From: a virus
Reading direction: 5' to 3' (one strand)
DNA: 33,385 nucleotides
Virus record (IMG/VR): IMGVR_UViG_3300022204_000014
Location: 1 to 33,385 of that record
Shown here: piece after piece, positions 4,388 through 25,722 of the stretch
How positions within the stretch are numbered: position 1 is the first letter of the stretch
How the letters are laid out: each line of letters opens with the position of its first letter
Made by a program: the position numbers and the translations under genes
Notes under the pieces: model-generated
Told to the model about the DNA's origin: nothing
What the model saw: only the letters and a program-made list of their open reading frames with translations
The model's database searches: none

Positions 4388-7300
4388 TCACATCACCATG
4401 GGCCGAGCGCCCAGGCCCCGTCGTTCCGCTTTTACCCGCACATTGTCGGCCCGCTGGTCGATATAGGCGTCGAACTGCTCACTGCCCACCATCACCGTGA
4501 TCTGCAGCGGCCGGCTGTTATAGTTGCGGTTTTCCTCGGCGGTTAAAATCCGCTCGCCCCGGTGGATCTTGGCGGGCATGTCGTATGGGACATAGTCGGT
4601 GCCTCCGGCGAATCCGGGTAACGGGGACATGTCCCACGGCGAGTCGCTGATTGTGGCCTTGTATATTTCCTCGATCTGTTTCCCGAGATGGTCGGCCCAG
4701 TGGATTGACCGTCCCGGGGTCACAAGATCCTCGAAAAAGGGGATCAGGGCAGCGTCCACCGAATCGATAGTGGCCTTGCCTGGTCCGACCAGGTAGTCAT
4801 TGTCCCAAATAAAATGAGCCAGCGTATCGAGTTTCGAGTTCTTGGGCATTTTGTCCATTAACTCGGTCAGATCATTGCTCACCAGCAACATCGGGTCATC
4901 GATGATCTCTTTTGGGGTTGGAGCCAGCCCGGGCAACGGTGAGCCACCCAGCAAGTCATCAAAAAAACCGCCAAGACCGAAGTTGCGCCGGCCTATCAAA
5001 CCACCGTCGGCAAAGTTTTCGCCAAGCTCTTTTCCGGCGATGCCTCCACCGATGACCTCGCCGTAATAAACCACGGCCTTGGCGATCGCCGAGTAAAGGC
5101 TCTCGCCGTCGCCCAGCCAGGCCTGTATAAATGTGGCAAAACCGCCGGCGTTGGTATCATTTGCCAGCTCACGAACCTTATCCCGGTCGGCGATCATGCC
5201 GCCCTCGGCAAAAACTGCCCGCTTCTGCCCGTTAAACCATTGCAGGAAGCCAAGATTGTTGGCCGTGGTCTCTTTATCAATGACAAATTCGCCGCCCATG
5301 CCGTAGTTGGCCACCGCGCCGCCGTTGGTCAATCCGAGGAACACATCGTCCCTGAAACCTGATCCCTGCCTGATATGTCCACCGCCGGGATGGGAACCCA
5401 ACCAGCCGCCGGTAGCGAAATTTTCCGCCAATAGGCGGCCCCCCACCAGCTCAAGGGCCACGCCACCCAGGTATCCCGCCACCGAGGCAATCCGGCTTTT
5501 CCAGTCATCCCCCTCTGTGCCAGATTCGGCCGCACCGAGACCGATCCACGATCCCATTATATCGAGCAGTCCGCCGGCTATTGCCCCGTAATTGGCCCCT
5601 CCAGTTGAGGTCACATAGCTATCGGATTTGTCGGTTGCCCCTTTAGTTGCGGTTCCCACGCCGGTCCATAGTCCGGACACCTCACCGAGCACGCTGGATG
5701 CCGATGTATAGACCGCGCCCATGCCATCGACGGAATCTTTATCCCCGAACGCCGTAACCATTTTGCCGATACTGCCGCCCCACTTGGTCTGCATGTCATC
5801 CCACGGCCCGCCGGTCTTGGTCAACTCGGTGGTGGTTCCCTTGGCCGAGGCCACCACGTCGGCGCTGTACTCGGAATCCAGCGTCCGCATCTTGCTGAGG
5901 TATTCAGTCTCATAGTGGGTGTTTTTCCGGCCGTTGTTGTCGATCAGGTCTTTGTACTGATCATCAAGGAGTTGCCGTTTATGCTCCAGCTCCTCGACAT
6001 CCAGCCGCTTGATCCGGCCCATGTAATCCTGGTAGGCCAGCTCTTTGTCAACGCCGGAGTCAACCGCCGCGCTATAATCGTCCTCATACTGGTCGGCCAG
6101 GTGGTCATAATAGCCGTCGGCCTGCCATTTCAGGCGGCCATACATCTTGTCGGTGATTGCCGCCTGTTCTTTGGCGGCCTTGATCGCCGCATTAGCTGCC
6201 TCTTTAGCGGCCTTGCCGGTCAGTTCCTGCTCTTGGGCCGTTTTTTTGAGGGCGTCTTGGATCTTTTTCTGACCCTCGATCACTTCTTCTTCGGTCTTGC
6301 CGCTGGTCACCGGGATGGCGGCGATCTTGTCACGCAGGGCGTGGACCTTATCGCCGACCGCGTCATAGCCTTTGCCGACATCCTCGAAGTCTTTTATTGA
6401 TTGCAGGGTAGTGGCATGGCTCGATAGGCGAAAAGTCGCCAAGCCGCTTTCCATCGAATCAAACGGGTTTACATCCAGAGTCCCCAGCTTTACCAACCCA
6501 TCGAAAACCAGATCAAGTGGCGCTAGGAGCGCCCGGAGCGCCTGAAGATCCGCCTCCAGCATCATGCCGATGAATTCGAGGGCCACGTTTGCCGCGACCT
6601 TGAATCCGGCCCACGCCTGATGCCCGAACTTGATAACATCTATGGCAGTGACGAGACCGTCGGCTAACCACAAAACCCCGTCTTTAACCAGGCTCATAAG
6701 GTATTCGCGGTTTTCTTTGATCTGGGCTCCCCATCCAGCGAACTCAACCCCGGCCATCTTGACCAAATCCACCAGGAACTGATTCTTGGTGATGACGAAA
6801 CCAAGTTCTTCCTTAGTGTCGCCAAGGATATTCTGGGTCTGGGTCAATGCACCGCCGAACGTGTTAGTTGCTGCCGCAGCCGCGCCACCGAACTGGCTCT
6901 CCAACTCGCCCAGGACAATGGCCTGGGCTCCAACCATGTCGCCCGATTCCTGCATGGTCCTTATTTGATCTTTCTGCTGTTCGGTAAAGGTGACGCCCGC
7001 CCTAGTGAGGGCGGTCATGCCGGTGATCGGGTCATTGGCCGCCTTGCCCACCAATAGCATCGAGCTTTTCAGGTCCTGGTCCATAACCTGGCTCATATCG
7101 AGCGCCGCCTGGGTAGCCCGCTCAAAGGCCTCCCCTTTGATCTGCTTAAAGGTCGACAAGATGGCCATACCACCCAGGGTCACCTCATCGCCCACCGTGG
7201 TGACTTTCTGAAAACCGGAGGCCATCTCCTTGAGTTGGTCGATGTTATACCCGGCCGCATGGCCGGTGGCCTGGAGCACCGCCTCCAGTTTGTTCTCGGC

Positions 7301-7588
7301 AGCCTCTTGCACATTGGCAGCGCCTACATACTCAACAACCGAGCCTTTCAGGGCGTCGTAACCCCGCTTGACCCCCATGATCCCCACCACGGCGCCGCCG
7401 ACTTTCATCAGCGACCCGGTCATGGACTCGGCTTTCTGCTCGGTCTCCCCCAGGGTCCGACCAAAGCCCAGAAAGGACTTCGTGCCCTTGTCCCCCGCCT
7501 TCTCGCCTTCCTGGCCGATCTGGCGGAGCACAACAGCGCCCTTGTCTGTTACTTTGACTTCGAGGTTGACGGTGCCGACGTTAGACAA
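4388..7588 (-). CDS. tail tape measure protein
   Basis: The 1066-residue protein fixes tail length and may help DNA cross the envelope. The N-terminal 300 residues have the usual tape-measure core (GQEGEKAGDKGTKSF; AANDPITGMTALTRAGVTFT; QFGGAAAAATNTFGGALTQTQ). Hydrophobic stretches follow at about 305-380, then a long helical, Lys/Ala-rich part (about 400-560), Gly-rich repeats with FATGG and FADGG motifs, and a C-terminus typical of the family (PAKIHRGERILTAEENR). The start is TTG 7588 behind GGGAG; it overlaps the end of the chaperone's second frame. By the usual scaling of about 0.15 nm per residue the tail would be roughly 160 nm. Confidence 0.9.
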   Translation of the reverse strand: MSNVGTVNLEVKVTDKGAVVLRQIGQEGEKAGDKGTKSFLGFGRTLGETEQKAESMTGSLMKVGGAVVGIMGVKRGYDALKGSVVEYVGAANVQEAAENKLEAVLQATGHAAGYNIDQLKEMASGFQKVTTVGDEVTLGGMAILSTFKQIKGEAFERATQAALDMSQVMDQDLKSSMLLVGKAANDPITGMTALTRAGVTFTEQQKDQIRTMQESGDMVGAQAIVLGELESQFGGAAAAATNTFGGALTQTQNILGDTKEELGFVITKNQFLVDLVKMAGVEFAGWGAQIKENREYLMSLVKDGVLWLADGLVTAIDVIKFGHQAWAGFKVAANVALEFIGMMLEADLQALRALLAPLDLVFDGLVKLGTLDVNPFDSMESGLATFRLSSHATTLQSIKDFEDVGKGYDAVGDKVHALRDKIAAIPVTSGKTEEEVIEGQKKIQDALKKTAQEQELTGKAAKEAANAAIKAAKEQAAITDKMYGRLKWQADGYYDHLADQYEDDYSAAVDSGVDKELAYQDYMGRIKRLDVEELEHKRQLLDDQYKDLIDNNGRKNTHYETEYLSKMRTLDSEYSADVVASAKGTTTELTKTGGPWDDMQTKWGGSIGKMVTAFGDKDSVDGMGAVYTSASSVLGEVSGLWTGVGTATKGATDKSDSYVTSTGGANYGAIAGGLLDIMGSWIGLGAAESGTEGDDWKSRIASVAGYLGGVALELVGGRLLAENFATGGWLGSHPGGGHIRQGSGFRDDVFLGLTNGGAVANYGMGGEFVIDKETTANNLGFLQWFNGQKRAVFAEGGMIADRDKVRELANDTNAGGFATFIQAWLGDGESLYSAIAKAVVYYGEVIGGGIAGKELGENFADGGLIGRRNFGLGGFFDDLLGGSPLPGLAPTPKEIIDDPMLLVSNDLTELMDKMPKNSKLDTLAHFIWDNDYLVGPGKATIDSVDAALIPFFEDLVTPGRSIHWADHLGKQIEEIYKATISDSPWDMSPLPGFAGGTDYVPYDMPAKIHRGERILTAEENRNYNSRPLQITVMVGSEQFDAYIDQRADNVRVKAERRGLGARPMVM

Positions 7589-8303
7589 TGGATCAATTCT
7601 CCCAGGTCAAACCATTCTTCCAAGTTGAGGGAATTCGCCTCGAGGGGGAATCCCGCGTTTTGCAACCGGCGGATCCGCAGCAGCTTGTGCGTGTACGGAT
7701 GCAGATCCGCCAGGCTTCTTTTTTCACAACTTTTGCACGACCAGGCCAGGTGCGCCCCGAACTCGGCCGCGCATTTTGCCTTTTCCTGCGGGTCACAGAG
7801 ACCTGACTGCAGGGTGATCAGGTCTCTTTCGAGTTTCCCGCCGCGTCATCCGGGGCCGGGGTTTCCGCCTGCCCGGGCTCGCCATCGCCGGGCAGCTCTT
7901 CCGGGTCTGGTTTCGGCTTCTCAGTGGGGTTACGCTTTACCGCCACCGAGCTCTCGAAAACAAACAGCGCCAACACCTCCACGATGTCGGCGGCATACTT
8001 CTCGATCAGATCCCGCCAGTTTTTGTTGTAGTGCGGCGACTGCGGATCGCTGGACATGGGGTTGCCGTCCGCGTCGGCAAAATCGCCATCTTTAAATCCG
8101 ACGAAGATCTTCATCCCATATTCCTGCCGCACCGGGCCGTGGTTGAAAACCACCTTGCCACCCTCGCGCACCACGCTCTTGTTCGAGTAATGCAACCGCT
8201 CGGTGGCGGTCGGCATCCGGTAATAGACCACCAGTTCCGAGCCGGACAGATTGTCGTTAATGCGCAACTCGTTACGGGCAGAGCCCCCTAGTGTACGTGC
8301 CAT
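7549..8303 (-). CDS. tail assembly chaperone made by -1 frameshift (GT-like fusion)
   Basis: The long product reads the 0 frame from ATG 8303 to the GGGAAAC site at 7833-7839, slips back one base and continues to TAA at 7549-7551, about 251 residues. The second frame is open, has no start of its own, and encodes a credible globular segment with CKSCEKRS, DLHPYTHKLL and LEEWFDLGELI. It ends 37 bases inside the tape measure gene, just as lambda gpGT-type products do. In the family, the short and long forms coat the tape measure during tail assembly in a fixed ratio. The frameshift is inferred from the sequence only. Confidence 0.75.
7818..8303 (-). CDS. tail assembly chaperone, short form (G-like)
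   Basis: The 161-residue unshifted product lies directly before the tape measure gene. It starts MARTLGGSARNELRI and ends in a Pro/Glu/Asp-rich tail (ETAPDDAAGNSKET). The start has AAGGAG a few bases upstream and one copy of the TTTAAA direct repeat overlapping the leader. In siphophages this protein is an abundant assembly chaperone, absent from the finished particle. Confidence 0.8.
   Translation of the reverse strand: MARTLGGSARNELRINDNLSGSELVVYYRMPTATERLHYSNKSVVREGGKVVFNHGPVRQEYGMKIFVGFKDGDFADADGNPMSSDPQSPHYNKNWRDLIEKYAADIVEVLALFVFESSVAVKRNPTEKPKPDPEELPGDGEPGQAETPAPDDAAGNSKET
7833..7839 (-). promoter_or_regulatory. -1 programmed frameshift slippery heptamer GGGAAAC
   Basis: On the coding strand the 0-frame codons are GGA AAC preceded by G, the canonical X XXY YYZ arrangement; lambda G/GT uses GGGAAAG. 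It lies 12 bases before the 0-frame stop. The -1 frame is then open for 94 codons. Confidence 0.75.
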
Positions 8304-8665: not shown

Positions 8666-8770
8666 GGCTTCTCCTTTTACGGTTCGCATTTCCAACAAAT
8701 CGCGTCAGCAGACCGCGTGTCGCGTTGTCTATCAATTAGCCGCCTTGGCGCGGTCGGCTGCGCTCAGGCG

Positions 8771-10048
8771 TTATGCCGCGTACGCCGCTTGCAGATTTTT
8801 GACCTTGGCGATCACCGAGCCGTAGGTGCCATCCTCCAGCACCACCAGATCGCCGGCCTCGGCCAGCCGCTTACCGTCCACCGACAGCGGCGCGGTGAGC
8901 ACGGCGCAAAGCGGAAAGATCAACTCCACCTGGTATTTGTGCGGATCGTCGAAGATGGCGCCCTCGGCCAGGATGTGGACCCCGAATGTGTCGTTGGCCG
9001 CGATATGCTGTTGCATGATCATCTCGCGGAATTCGCGGGTGAGCTTGATGGTCTGGGTCCGGCTGTCGCGGGAGATCCGCGAGGCATAGGCCCCGCCGGC
9101 GCCGGGCACGAACTCCGCCGCCACGCCGTTGTTGATCGTCCAGTCAACCGACTTGATCTCGCTGGTCAGCTCGCGGCCGCCGGCAAACGTCGTACCGTTC
9201 CAGGCACCGCCCAGCATGACGGTGAGTTCCGAAACCCGCAACGGGGTCTCGGTAACCCGGCTGGGGAATACCATCCATCCCGATTCGGTGGGGATGTAGA
9301 GCACCTCATAGTTGACCACGGTGACGTCCCCACCCGGGGCGGCAATGGTGATCACCGCCGGGGTGGCGGCGGATACCGCCGAATAGGTCACCTCGGTCCA
9401 GACGCCGGCGGTCAGCTCCACGCGGATCCGCTGCACGTTGTCCAGCCGGGTGGCCGCGTCGGCCCCCTCCACACCATTGGCCGCCAGGGTCAACTCGGTA
9501 ACATTGCCCGCCGCCGCAATGGTCTCGGACGCCACGTTATCGGTGACCTTGCCGGTGCCCTTGGCCTGGCCGGTGATCTTTACCCAGGTGTCTTTGGCAA
9601 AGGTGGCGCTGATCGTCTCTATGGCCATGGAGGCAAAGCGGCGCTTGAGCACGGTCTTGCCGTAGCGCTGGGCCACCGTAAAGGTCGGCAGGTCTCGGTC
9701 GGCGTCAACGCCGGCGGCAATCGGCGTGATGGTGTGCTCGTAGCCGGTCCCGGCCGCCGCCGAGGAGATCGAGCCCAGGCCGTAGGCCAGCAGAAACGCA
9801 AAATGCTGGGGCTGGGCCTTCTCGAAATTAAACGGGATGCCCGAGGTGGCGCCCAGGTCATACACGGCGTCCGGCTCTTCCTTGCCGGTCAGCTCGTCGG
9901 CGTTGGATTCGCGCCGCGGCTCCAGGTTGGCGATGTCGCTCATCGAGACCAGGAGCGACAGGTCCAGGGTCTGCTCGGTATTAATACCGGTCTCTTGACT
10001 GCCCGCCGATACCGCGACAAGGTTATGTTGCCCGCGAAATGATCTCAT
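8771..10048 (-). CDS. major tail tube protein (siphovirus type)
   Basis: The 425-residue protein starts MRSFRGQHNLV, sits after the tail terminator and DUF2635-like genes and before the chaperone, and is beta-rich throughout with an inserted Ig-like stretch (about residues 165-260, GTGKVTDNVASETI to GGDVTVVNYEVLY). A C-terminal part (SRDSRTQTIKLTREFREMIMQ) resembles tube proteins. In Mu this slot holds the sheath and a tube gene; here there is one gene only and no sheath-like sequence, which is the main reason to predict a non-contractile tail. Its start codon overlaps the previous stop (ATGA). Confidence 0.7.
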   Translation of the reverse strand: MRSFRGQHNLVAVSAGSQETGINTEQTLDLSLLVSMSDIANLEPRRESNADELTGKEEPDAVYDLGATSGIPFNFEKAQPQHFAFLLAYGLGSISSAAAGTGYEHTITPIAAGVDADRDLPTFTVAQRYGKTVLKRRFASMAIETISATFAKDTWVKITGQAKGTGKVTDNVASETIAAAGNVTELTLAANGVEGADAATRLDNVQRIRVELTAGVWTEVTYSAVSAATPAVITIAAPGGDVTVVNYEVLYIPTESGWMVFPSRVTETPLRVSELTVMLGGAWNGTTFAGGRELTSEIKSVDWTINNGVAAEFVPGAGGAYASRISRDSRTQTIKLTREFREMIMQQHIAANDTFGVHILAEGAIFDDPHKYQVELIFPLCAVLTAPLSVDGKRLAEAGDLVVLEDGTYGSVIAKVKNLQAAYAA

Positions 10049-14110: not shown

Positions 14111-14560
14111 CTATCCGTGTAAGATGTAGTCTTTCAATGCCTCGGCCATTTCGGTCCAGTCTTCATCCTGGAGAACCAGATACGGCCGAGCCGGGATCGT
14201 TACTTTTTTGCCGCGCCCGGCCTGGCCGCCGAACTGGTGGATGGCACCGTATTTCTTGTTGGTGCCGATCAATACCTTGTCCGACTTCGCTTTATAGTTA
14301 ATGCTGCCCGCCAGGCCGCCGGCCATGCCCTGCTCCATGAGGATCTTCGAGCCGTTCTTCTGATCCAGGGTCACCTGCTTGAGCGGCTCCCAGGCCTGGG
14401 GCCGGCCGCCGACCTCGAAGTTGCGGAGAATCGAGACGGTGGCGATCTCGCCGATGATCTCGTAAGCGTCTTTCGGATGCTCGATGCGCTGGATCATGGC
14501 GCCCAGGTTCTGCATTACGTCCCGGGAGTCCACCTTGAATTCAATCGCCGAACCAGCCAT
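14111..14560 (-). CDS. G: Mu gpG-like virion morphogenesis protein
   Basis: The 149-residue protein begins MAGSAIEFKVDSRDVMQ and has the family signature: SILRNFEVGGRPQAWEPL, GSINYKAKSDKVLIGTNKKYGAIHQFGG and IPARPYLVLQDEDW. The family (phage virion morphogenesis) acts in head-tail joining or tail assembly. ATG 14560 is chosen because GGAG lies ten bases upstream, inside the end of the F gene; an upstream in-frame start would run back into F. Confidence 0.85.
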   Translation of the reverse strand: MAGSAIEFKVDSRDVMQNLGAMIQRIEHPKDAYEIIGEIATVSILRNFEVGGRPQAWEPLKQVTLDQKNGSKILMEQGMAGGLAGSINYKAKSDKVLIGTNKKYGAIHQFGGQAGRGKKVTIPARPYLVLQDEDWTEMAEALKDYILHG

Positions 14561-14562
14561 GC

Positions 14563-15267
14563 CTACTTTTCTCCGTATGCCGCCATGCCCGGGTTGTAGT
14601 CCCACCCGGGGTCAATGCCCTTGGGTACCTGGTGGACCTCACCGGTGCGCTTATCGATCCACTCGTAGGTTTCTTCCTGCCTGGGCGCTTTGGTCTGGAT
14701 CCTCTCGCCCTGTTCTTTAAGTTTTTCCACCTCACGGGCGGAAGCGCTCACCACGCCGCACTTTCAGCCCCAGCCGTTGGGCGGATAATGGGTCCGCCAG
14801 AACGGATCGTCCGCCGGCAGCACCAGATTGCCCCACGCGGCATGTTCTGGCCTGGGGTTGCCCGAGCTGGACGGCACATAGCGCAGGAACGGTCGCACCG
14901 CCTGCACGGCCGGCGACATCTGCTGCTTGTAGCGCCCGGCCGAATAAGACGTGGACAGGTTGGTGTTGAAGATGGTCGCCGTGCGCCAGTTCCGGCCGCC
15001 GTTATATTCCCAGCCAGCCCGGGCCACGGTGTCGTCAAAACTTTTCCGGAACTCGGCCAGGGTTGTGCCCTGGGCAATGCCCTGGTCAACCGCCGCCCGC
15101 AGATCGTCCAGCAGATCCTCTTTCATGGCGCCGGCCACGGTGAACGCCTTGGAATGCGCTCCTTGCCAGATATCCTTCCAGGTGGCGGTTGGCAGGTTGA
15201 GCTTGGCCCGAAAAAAGGCGATCGCCTCCTCAAAGGGCAGGTCAACATATTGGGCGCTCTCAGGCAT
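14563..15267 (-). CDS. F: Mu gpF-like head morphogenesis protein with in-frame UGA (candidate selenocysteine)
   Basis: This minor head protein is needed for building the head around the portal. The first 167 codons (MPESAQYVDLPFEEA to HYPPNGWG) match the family, including NTNLSTSYSAGRYKQQ and RPEHAAWGNLVLPADDPFWRTHYPPNGWG. A UGA follows at 14764-14766, then the same frame stays open for 66 codons (KCGVVSASAREVEKL to MAAYGEK). The family has a Cys at this very spot (PNGWxCxC), so UGA-Lys-Cys stands for Cys-x-Cys. Full length would be 234 residues. The open frame beyond the stop still looks like the family C-terminus. UGA could mean selenocysteine, readthrough, or a single-base nonsense mutation of TGC/TGT. 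No canonical bacterial SECIS is evident. At 234 residues it is also shorter than Mu gpF. Confidence 0.8.
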
Positions 15268-15395: not shown

Positions 15396-16883
15396 TTAGC
15401 GTTCAACGTCGAACCTCCCGGCCAGGTCGGCCACTACAAAGGCCCGCTGCATGAGGTTGCCCAGGTCTGATTCGTTCATCTCCGCGCCCAGGTCCAGCAG
15501 GCTGTCCCGGAACTCCTCAAGCGATCCGGCCTTGGCCAGTGCCCGCTCGATCGGCTGCATGAATTTGCCCATGTCCGCCTGGGCCAGGGTCTTGGCGCCC
15601 AGGGCGTCGAGGGTAGGGGCTGGTGACATGTCCAAATCCGCCTCGGCAAAGTAGCCGCCCAGGTCGTTGCCCGGATCCCGGCCACCGGCAATTTGCCCGC
15701 CGACAACCTCGGCGCCTTTTTCCGGCTCCGGGATCCCGTAGGTGTCGTAAAAATAGCGCTTGGCCACCGGCAGGCCGATATCCTTGACCAGCACCTTGTC
15801 GCGATCGGCCAGGGCCTTGAGATCCTGCTCCTCGGCGGTGCGTATTCTCAGCTGGGGATAGTCCGCGAGATTGGGGTGGTTAAAATCCGCGATCCACCGG
15901 ACCACGGTTTCGTTCAGCACCTCGCAAAGCAGGTCGGCATCCGCCTTGACGATCTCCTGACGCACGCCGTCCTGGGCATCGTCGTTGCCGAGCTTGCCCG
16001 GCGTGCCCTCGGTGCTGGCGGTCTGCGACAGCACCGCCTTGGATATCTGCCGGTCCATGTAATCGCACAGGGTCTCGTAGGTGACTTTGCCGCCGCGAGT
16101 CGCCTCCAGCAGATCGATGGACATGGTGTCCGGGATCTTGACCCCGGTTTCCTGCTGTATGGCGTCGATGGCCTCCAGCAGGGCGTCCTGATCCTTCTTG
16201 TCCGTGCCGGATGGGTACTTGCCCACAGCGGTGGGTGAGCCGAATTTCTCAAGAAAAACCAACCAGAATTTAATGCCGTGTTTCTTGAACCAGACCGGCC
16301 ACCAGAGTTTCTGCCCCAGCCCCTTGCCGTAGGGGTTGTCGCTGGAGCCATAGCTGAAGACGATGAACTTCCGGTCCGGCGTCTCTTCGCCCGCGATCAT
16401 GTTGGTCCTGGTCAGCAACCGCAGGCTGCGATCCTCGGCAAAAACAAACCGGCGCGGATGCTTGGCCCGGATCTTTTTGGGCATGATCTGACCCTTGCGC
16501 ACGGTCCACATGACCTCGCCGACGAAATAGCCGTAGAGAATCGCCTGCAGCAGCTCCTGGCAGAACTGGCTGAAGTTGCACCCGCCCAGGCCCGTCTCGA
16601 CGGTCTCGGCCACCGCCTTTGCCGCCTCGGAATCATCGGCCGGCAGAACCTCCCATTCCTTGCCGGTGACCGCCAGGTAACGGCTCTGCAGCACAGCCCC
16701 GGCATGGGCGTCGCGGTCCACCTCGTCGTAGAGCTTGAGCCCCTTGCCGTTGGCCTCGGTCCGCAGGGTGGGGTCGGGGTTCTCCATCCGGTTCGTCCAA
16801 CCGGCAAAAATATCGATATCATTGCTCGCGGCGGCGATCTCGTCGGTGTTTGGCTCCGGCGTTTTTTTGTCCTGGTCGGCCAT
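15396..16883 (-). CDS. DUF935 portal protein (Mu gp29-like)
   Basis: The 495-residue protein is the dodecameric portal through which DNA enters the head. DUF935 features are clear: RTEANGKGLKLYDEVDRDAHAGAVLQSR, TGKEWEVLPAD, FCQELLQAILYGYFVGEVMW, the FVFSYG-like stretch FIVFSYGSSDNPYGKG and LWWPVWFKKHGIKFWLVFLEKFGSPTAVGKYP. Its length is usual for the family. It starts one base after the terminase stop. Confidence 0.93.
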   Translation of the reverse strand: MADQDKKTPEPNTDEIAAASNDIDIFAGWTNRMENPDPTLRTEANGKGLKLYDEVDRDAHAGAVLQSRYLAVTGKEWEVLPADDSEAAKAVAETVETGLGGCNFSQFCQELLQAILYGYFVGEVMWTVRKGQIMPKKIRAKHPRRFVFAEDRSLRLLTRTNMIAGEETPDRKFIVFSYGSSDNPYGKGLGQKLWWPVWFKKHGIKFWLVFLEKFGSPTAVGKYPSGTDKKDQDALLEAIDAIQQETGVKIPDTMSIDLLEATRGGKVTYETLCDYMDRQISKAVLSQTASTEGTPGKLGNDDAQDGVRQEIVKADADLLCEVLNETVVRWIADFNHPNLADYPQLRIRTAEEQDLKALADRDKVLVKDIGLPVAKRYFYDTYGIPEPEKGAEVVGGQIAGGRDPGNDLGGYFAEADLDMSPAPTLDALGAKTLAQADMGKFMQPIERALAKAGSLEEFRDSLLDLGAEMNESDLGNLMQRAFVVADLAGRFDVER

Positions 16884-24805: not shown

Positions 24806-24854
24806 TAAATTTCCTTTTGGCTGCTCATCAGGCCGAGGCCGCCACGCCCCGGCG

Positions 24855-24875
24855 ACTCCCCAAGCGGCGGGGAGT
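24855..24875 (-). other. intergenic stem-loop in the early operon
   Basis: ACTCCCC and GGGGAGT form a perfect 7-bp stem around 7 bases, between the DUF3164 stop and the small Cys-rich gene. No U tract follows. It may be a processing or attenuation site. Confidence 0.35.
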
Positions 24876-24884
24876 TTCGCACTC

Positions 24885-25490
24885 TCACAGATCCAGCCGC
24901 ACCCCTTTCCAGTCCCCGGTCCGTTCCGGCCGCTCGGAAAAATAGGTATAGGTTTTCCGGCCGGTGATGGTGATGGCATTGGAGATCAGTTCCATGGCCT
25001 GTTCCCATTCGGCGTCCTTGATTTTCAACCGCCGCAGGCCCAGGATCCGCTTGACGTCGACCTGACCCTTGATGTCGACTTTAAATGCATCGAAAACCAC
25101 GGCCCGCAAGTTGGCGTTGCCGCCCTCGGACCAGCGGTCCAGGCATTTATCGATGGTCTCCTTGGCAAATTGGAGCCGCTCGTCAAAGTCGATGCAGGCG
25201 CAGGTCTTGATCTGCAACCGCCGATCGCCGGAAAAATTGGAGAAAATATAGTTGCCGCCCGGGTTGAGGCAGTCGGCGCCGGCATCCTCGGCCGACTGGG
25301 CCAGAAACTTCTCCACCTCGACGTCGATGGCCCCGCGCAGTTTGTCCAGCCGCTCGGAAATTCGCTTGGCCTCGGTGATCAGCCGCTCCACCATGGCGTC
25401 GCGTTTCTTGTCGATGGGCTTGATGTACCTGGCCGGCACACTGGCGCCGGTCGAGTCGATCCAGACCCCGTTTTTATCTTTAGTTGCCAT
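24885..25490 (-). CDS. DUF3164 protein
   Basis: The 201-residue protein begins [31 protein letters not shown], the typical N-terminus of DUF3164, followed by helical [21 protein letters not shown] and later [14 protein letters not shown]. The family is found in the early region of Mu-like phages of many hosts; its function is not known. ATG 25490 follows GGAGCAAGTG and overlaps the SEC-C gene. Confidence 0.85.
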
Positions 25491-25722
25491 CACTTGCTCC
25501 TTTGTTTTTTCGTTCTGATAATACCGGCTTCCGTGCCGCCCCATGAAGGCAACATTTCTTGAATTTAATCCCACTCCCACACGGACACATAGAATTACGC
25601 CCAGTCTTTGCCGTTATCTTTTGAGGTGGAACTGGCTTGAAAAACTCTTCGTCTTCTGGTTTTCCTGCCATCCGGAACAACATTTCTGCGTATGGCATAA
25701 CCTCACCTGTTCTGATGTCCAT
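25480..25722 (-). CDS. SEC-C motif zinc-binding protein
   Basis: An 80-residue protein with [16 protein letters not shown] at about residues 46-61, the SEC-C zinc motif seen at the end of SecA and in many small proteins. A short N-terminal part ([17 protein letters not shown]) precedes it. ATG 25722 follows GGAGG. The motif binds zinc and mediates protein contacts; the partner is unknown. Confidence 0.75.

Follow-up and report, generated by a model that had tools for sequence, protein, structure and literature searches.

The window, as the whole analysed stretch of 33,385 bases is called here, is a virus record and not a host genome. Its minus strand carries a gene for a Mu F-like minor head protein, flanked by genes for a portal protein and a virion morphogenesis protein (Table 1). 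With TGA taken as a residue, the F frame runs from ATG to TAG and gives 234 aa, the single in-frame TGA being codon 168. The translated sequence matches Pfam PF04233 (Phage_Mu_F) with an E-value = 2e-16 and 61.1 bits, above the family cut-off of 29.6, and F is described as a minor head protein in a survey of the MuF family (PMC5512222). The order portal - F - gpG is the usual late gene order of Mu-type transposable phages. MuA- and MuB-like transposition genes are also found in the window, and its other late genes consist of long open frames that are closely packed.

Table 1. Features at the F locus of the window
Feature	Position	Strand	Remarks
Mu portal gene, upstream neighbour of F	15396..16883	minus	PF06074, E = 2.2e-109
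Mu F-like minor head protein gene	14563..15267	minus	234 codons including one UGA presumed read through; translation and PF04233
In-frame UGA, codon 168, inferred selenocysteine at first Cys of CxC	14764..14766	minus	translation, homologue column
UGC, C170, second Cys of CxC	14758..14760	minus	UGA instead in 14 other F loci (8 distinct)
Candidate bacterial SECIS hairpin UUCCGCC-CGUGA-GGUGGAA	14725..14743	minus	structural model, covariation, MFE fold
C-terminal 66 codons and stop TAG, would be made only upon UGA decoding	14563..14763	minus	translation
Virion morphogenesis gene (gpG / Phage_tail_S), downstream neighbour of F	14111..14557	minus	PF05069, E = 5e-24

The motif at the UGA reads PPNGWG-U-KCGVV and lies in the sequence HYPPNGWG-U-KCGVVSASAREVEK. 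A first-pass annotation had described an F-like frame with UGA in PPNGWG-UGA-K-C and 66 further open codons, and this was confirmed, the coding strand being the minus strand. An alignment of 58 homologues, in which residue 168 of the window protein was entered as C, displays 31 invariant columns; these include C168, C170, H142, H160 and P163-N164-G165-W166. We know of no function for the CxC of F. An AlphaFold model of F has a pLDDT of 87. A Foldseek comparison of the model with solved structures showed none that are similar (best E = 1.1), and PDB sequence searches with F gave nothing useful.

About 20 of the other genes predicted in the window terminate at TGA. Thus UGA is not reassigned wholesale, and wholesale reassignment (codes 4 and 25) was rejected on this ground. 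No tRNA gene is found in the window, therefore a host Sec system would have to serve this phage.

Two other features of the window were observed. A type II hammerhead ribozyme at 24815–24882, minus strand (Rfam RF02276, 71.4 bits, E-value = 3.5e-13), is situated directly 3′ of the stop of the gene at 24885–25580. At 8717–10048 there are two long open reading frames on opposite strands with near-total overlap, of 441 aa (plus) and 425 aa (minus). The minus frame is kept in related phages with 52–56% identity, thus the 441 aa plus frame is probably spurious.

UGA codons in other F genes

Codon 168 is TGC or TGT in all 80 of the best loci listed by an IMG/VR protein search, which suggested a lone mutation in the window copy. 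The first-pass annotation had named uniform TGC/TGT in close relatives as evidence against a selenoprotein. This holds for the best 80 listed but is misleading, and the suggestion of a lone mutation was overturned by a direct DNA scan of the virus collection with the pattern PNGW-xxx-TGA-xxx-TGY. The scan gave 115 matches, 21 of which are viral F homologues with UGA at exactly the codon-168 column. A stricter pattern applied to the bacterial genome collection gave two more F homologues with UGA, L296 in a Desulfobacteraceae MAG and L301 in a Nitrospirae MAG. The comparison with homologues that the first-pass annotation had proposed thus yields UGA at the first Cys in 23 other F records, 20 of them distinct, and at the partner Cys (PNGWG-C-x-U) in 14 F loci, of which 8 are distinct. 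The scan for the second Cys had been designed as a negative control and came out positive.

A scan for UGA at the motif Trp, which a single transition of TGG would produce, returned 18 matches, and one for UGA at the Gly preceding the Cys returned 4; there are no F homologues in either set. This confinement to the two Cys codons is not as expected from random nonsense mutation or assembly error. K, T, R, Q, H, L and N all occur between the UGA and the second Cys, and because this residue varies the UGA copies are not one sequence duplicated. The frame is open on either side of the UGA in all UGA copies with no other stop, a few of them reaching contig ends, and portal homologues adjoin most of these genes. 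UGA copies are a small minority among F genes, and a survey of 389 and 230 genomes from two host classes added no full F match with UGA to the two already known.

Pairs of other UGA copies show a dN/dS of 0.09–0.18 on the 3′ side of the UGA and similarly low values upstream. The low values beyond the UGA indicate that the C-terminal region is translated and has been retained. On a tree built by a quick method from 125 F proteins, in which many forks are open, Cys and UGA must have interchanged 18 times; well-supported branches force 11 or more of these changes. First- and second-position UGA are interleaved on this tree. L013 (positions 6922–7599) is a Cys copy nested among the UGA copies L154, L158 and L194, and it has kept their SECIS-like hairpin intact. 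It is a candidate for a recent Sec-to-Cys reversion, with the hairpin as the expected footprint.

Six UGA copies (L154, L158, L194, L128, L183 and L189) display a longer frame, which runs about 230–250 codons past the UGA. The extra C-terminal domain ends like VAQSKNGVMEAWTMVPTSDFKYLNRQRRGKLIWAR and presumably resembles a phage BECR-type nuclease domain. A Sec codon would gate this fused domain as well in the six copies.

The candidate SECIS hairpin and host Sec machinery

A published model of the bacterial SECIS specifies an apical loop of 3–9 nt with G at either of its first two positions, a stem of 4–16 bp, a distance of 16–37 nt from the UGA and an energy of −7.5 kcal/mol or lower (PMC13188914). 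It was applied here as an unbulged-hairpin test. The window hairpin has a 7-bp stem and a 5-nt loop, CGUGA, with G at position 2 followed by U; its energy is −8.6 kcal/mol, and the spacing from the UGA to the start of the apical loop is 27 nt. The window hairpin passes the model. The pass rate is 24 in 28 for the distinct UGA copies, versus 7 in 68 for Cys copies and 13 in 109 for a further set of Cys copies; when the codons of the UGA copies are shuffled synonymously, 3.05 of 28 are expected to pass. Fisher p-values for UGA versus Cys copies are about 1e-12 to 1e-13 but are descriptive only, because relatedness is ignored. Among the UGA copies that fail, L296, L140 and L209 have the right geometry and fall short in energy, and L187 has a weak 4-bp stem. 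A UGA at the second Cys is served by this hairpin as well, at a distance of 21 nt, and the loop is found within 16–27 nt of the UGA whichever Cys is replaced.

The first-pass annotation had drawn two other structures just after the UGA, AAGUGC/GCGCUU and GGCG/CGCC. These can be drawn, but their spacing is wrong and they are not conserved, and they are not the SECIS. The same annotation had placed the loop nearer to the UGA than in standard elements, whereas the candidate at 14743–14725 shows standard spacing.

Thirteen UGA copies aligned on the hairpin have 78 of 78 pair cells intact over the inner 6 bp and show both-sided (compensatory) changes at three of the six pairs; as these copies were picked for using the window hairpin register, this choice biases the pairing figure upwards more than it does the compensatory changes. 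Of the 28 UGA copies, 14 form all six pairs; of the 68 Cys copies, 3 do. A fully paired 7-bp SECIS-like hairpin is common to the window, L154 and L194. UGA copies in other registers mostly display other strong hairpins 16–25 nt away, with loops such as GGU, GGC, GUC, GUCU and AGGUCA. Taken alone, the window hairpin stands out only modestly from synonymous shuffles (p = 0.12), and the whole 55-nt fold of the window is not unusual (z = −0.96); the case rests on the family. An overlapping GC-rich hairpin can form closer to the UGA in close relatives, and an Rfam search of the UGA region showed no matching family.

Both bacterial genomes that contain a UGA copy of F, which are hosts of related phages, have SelA, SelB, SelD and tRNA-Sec above curated cut-offs. 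The selD genes of both (L366, L367) carry an in-frame TGA, thus selenophosphate synthetase itself is likely a selenoprotein in these hosts. In the genome with L296 (G002), a comparable element, UCCAGG-GGA-CCUGGA, comes after the selD UGA, and its loop lies 20 nt from that codon. The Nitrospirae MAG has selB on the contig of its UGA copy of F, which argues against a binning artefact. SelB is above cut-off in 206 of 229 and 323 of 389 genomes of the two host classes (83–90%). A host SelB is therefore necessary but weak evidence, and its presence was rejected as statistical proof.

Interpretation and relation to known systems

The window F is read here, with a probability of about 0.91, as a Mu/B3-type minor head protein with selenocysteine encoded in place of the first Cys of an invariant CxC and decoded through host SelB. 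The proposal of a candidate phage selenoprotein in the first-pass annotation has gained support from the recurrence of UGA at either Cys, its absence from neighbouring codons one step from UGA, the bSECIS hairpins, the purifying selection and the Sec machinery of related hosts. As judged from sequence comparisons, the best reading of the UGA copies of F is that they form a new selenoprotein family in phage heads. During late expression, a host SelB-GTP-Sec-tRNA(Sec) complex would bind the hairpin just 3′ of the UGA. With Sec delivered at the UGA, the ribosome would complete the 234-residue F; with no delivery, the product would be a 167-residue F that is missing the C-terminal part. The simplest account would be ordinary bacterial Sec insertion, with host SelB acting on phage mRNA.

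A rival explanation is that the window copy has suffered a point nonsense mutation, or contains a sequencing error, with a truncated F and a dead prophage as the result. It needs only one change from TGC and agrees with the TGC/TGT codons of the best 80 protein matches listed, as well as with the p-value of the window hairpin by itself. It is nevertheless very improbable, as it does not account for the same-column UGA in 23 other F records from many clades, the purifying selection 3′ of the UGA in close UGA relatives, or the lack of UGA at the adjacent Trp and Gly. It also fits poorly with a window in which the other late genes are long, open and tightly packed and the hairpin is fully paired over 7 bp like those of L154 and L194.

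Decoding of the UGA as Cys or another standard residue by an opal-suppressor tRNA can be given next to no weight. Such suppressor tRNAs exist in some bacteria, and the homologues of F have Cys at the UGA column. However, a suppressor leaves the bSECIS-like hairpins in 24 of 28 UGA copies unexplained, many genes of the window end normally at TGA, there is no tRNA gene within it, and the hosts that could be examined have a true Sec system. UGA-A is a leaky stop context, and a programmed readthrough or a programmed short product, with the inserted residue immaterial, would give both a truncated and a full product. Such a device would be indifferent to Cys, but UGA is confined to the two CxC Cys codons and was not seen at neighbouring codons, and the hairpin geometry obeys the SECIS rule for both UGA positions; this explanation is extremely unlikely as well.

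Under the selenocysteine reading, we infer that Sec is inserted at residue 168 and is present in the virion, and that it has a chemical role there. This role is probably that of a selenenylsulfide/thiol redox pair, which is favoured because lineages differ in which Cys of the pair is replaced by Sec. An alternative role for the CxC is a metal site with the invariant His142 and His160, but Sec alternating between the two Cys would fit a redox/selenenylsulfide pair more easily than a purely structural metal ligand. A further proposal, which is tentative and rather doubtful, is that the virion selenoprotein is made only with host selenium, so that Sec supply would gate head assembly or genome ejection, and that Sec and Cys are exchanged repeatedly at two positions as the phages switch between Sec-using and other hosts.

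If the selenocysteine reading is true, selenium is a component of some phage particles, and gene callers that stop at UGA cut these head proteins short. UGA-F phages should then grow well only in Sec-decoding hosts, so that the codon would serve to mark host range. The recurrent switching between Sec and Cys at two motif positions would be a natural experiment on the reasons for Sec use.

The mechanism of Sec decoding is already known; what would be new, with priority not certain, is a head protein using Sec, and at either of two positions. A literature search, with most subscription papers and bioRxiv preprints outside its scope, found no earlier report of a phage-encoded selenoprotein, structural ones included, and phages and viruses go unmentioned in a 2026 review of prokaryotic selenoproteomes. 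Genes for tRNA-Sec have been annotated in some phages (PMC6145125, PMC10747093). These are a hint of phage contact with the Sec system, as are the UGA copies of F, but they consist of an annotated tRNA with no selenoprotein gene, whereas the window phage has no tRNA gene. The known viral selenoproteins are the glutathione peroxidases of poxviruses, which like the phage F would be virus-encoded selenoproteins; unlike F, which is a phage structural protein, they are acquired host enzymes of a eukaryotic virus with a eukaryotic SECIS (PMC8310308).

The window F resembles Mu F and SPP1 gp7 (MuF, PF04233) in full-length homology, in the PPNGWGCxC motif and in its place between portal and gpG, but known members have Cys where the UGA copies have UGA. 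The MuF survey, in the sections consulted, treats MuF fusions and does not raise Sec (PMC5512222). As in bacterial selenoproteins such as SelD and formate dehydrogenase, the UGA is found at a Cys column and is followed 16–37 nt downstream by a hairpin whose loop has G at either of its first two positions (PMC13188914). In contrast to these, F is a phage head protein and not a host oxidoreductase, and Sec would occur at either of two Cys. Sec-to-Cys reversions with a remnant SECIS have been described for the bacterial FdhA and HesB-like genes (PMC1794560), and the Cys copy L013 likewise retains its hairpin. Here, however, the genes are those of phages, and at least 11, probably about 18, changes are found on one tree.
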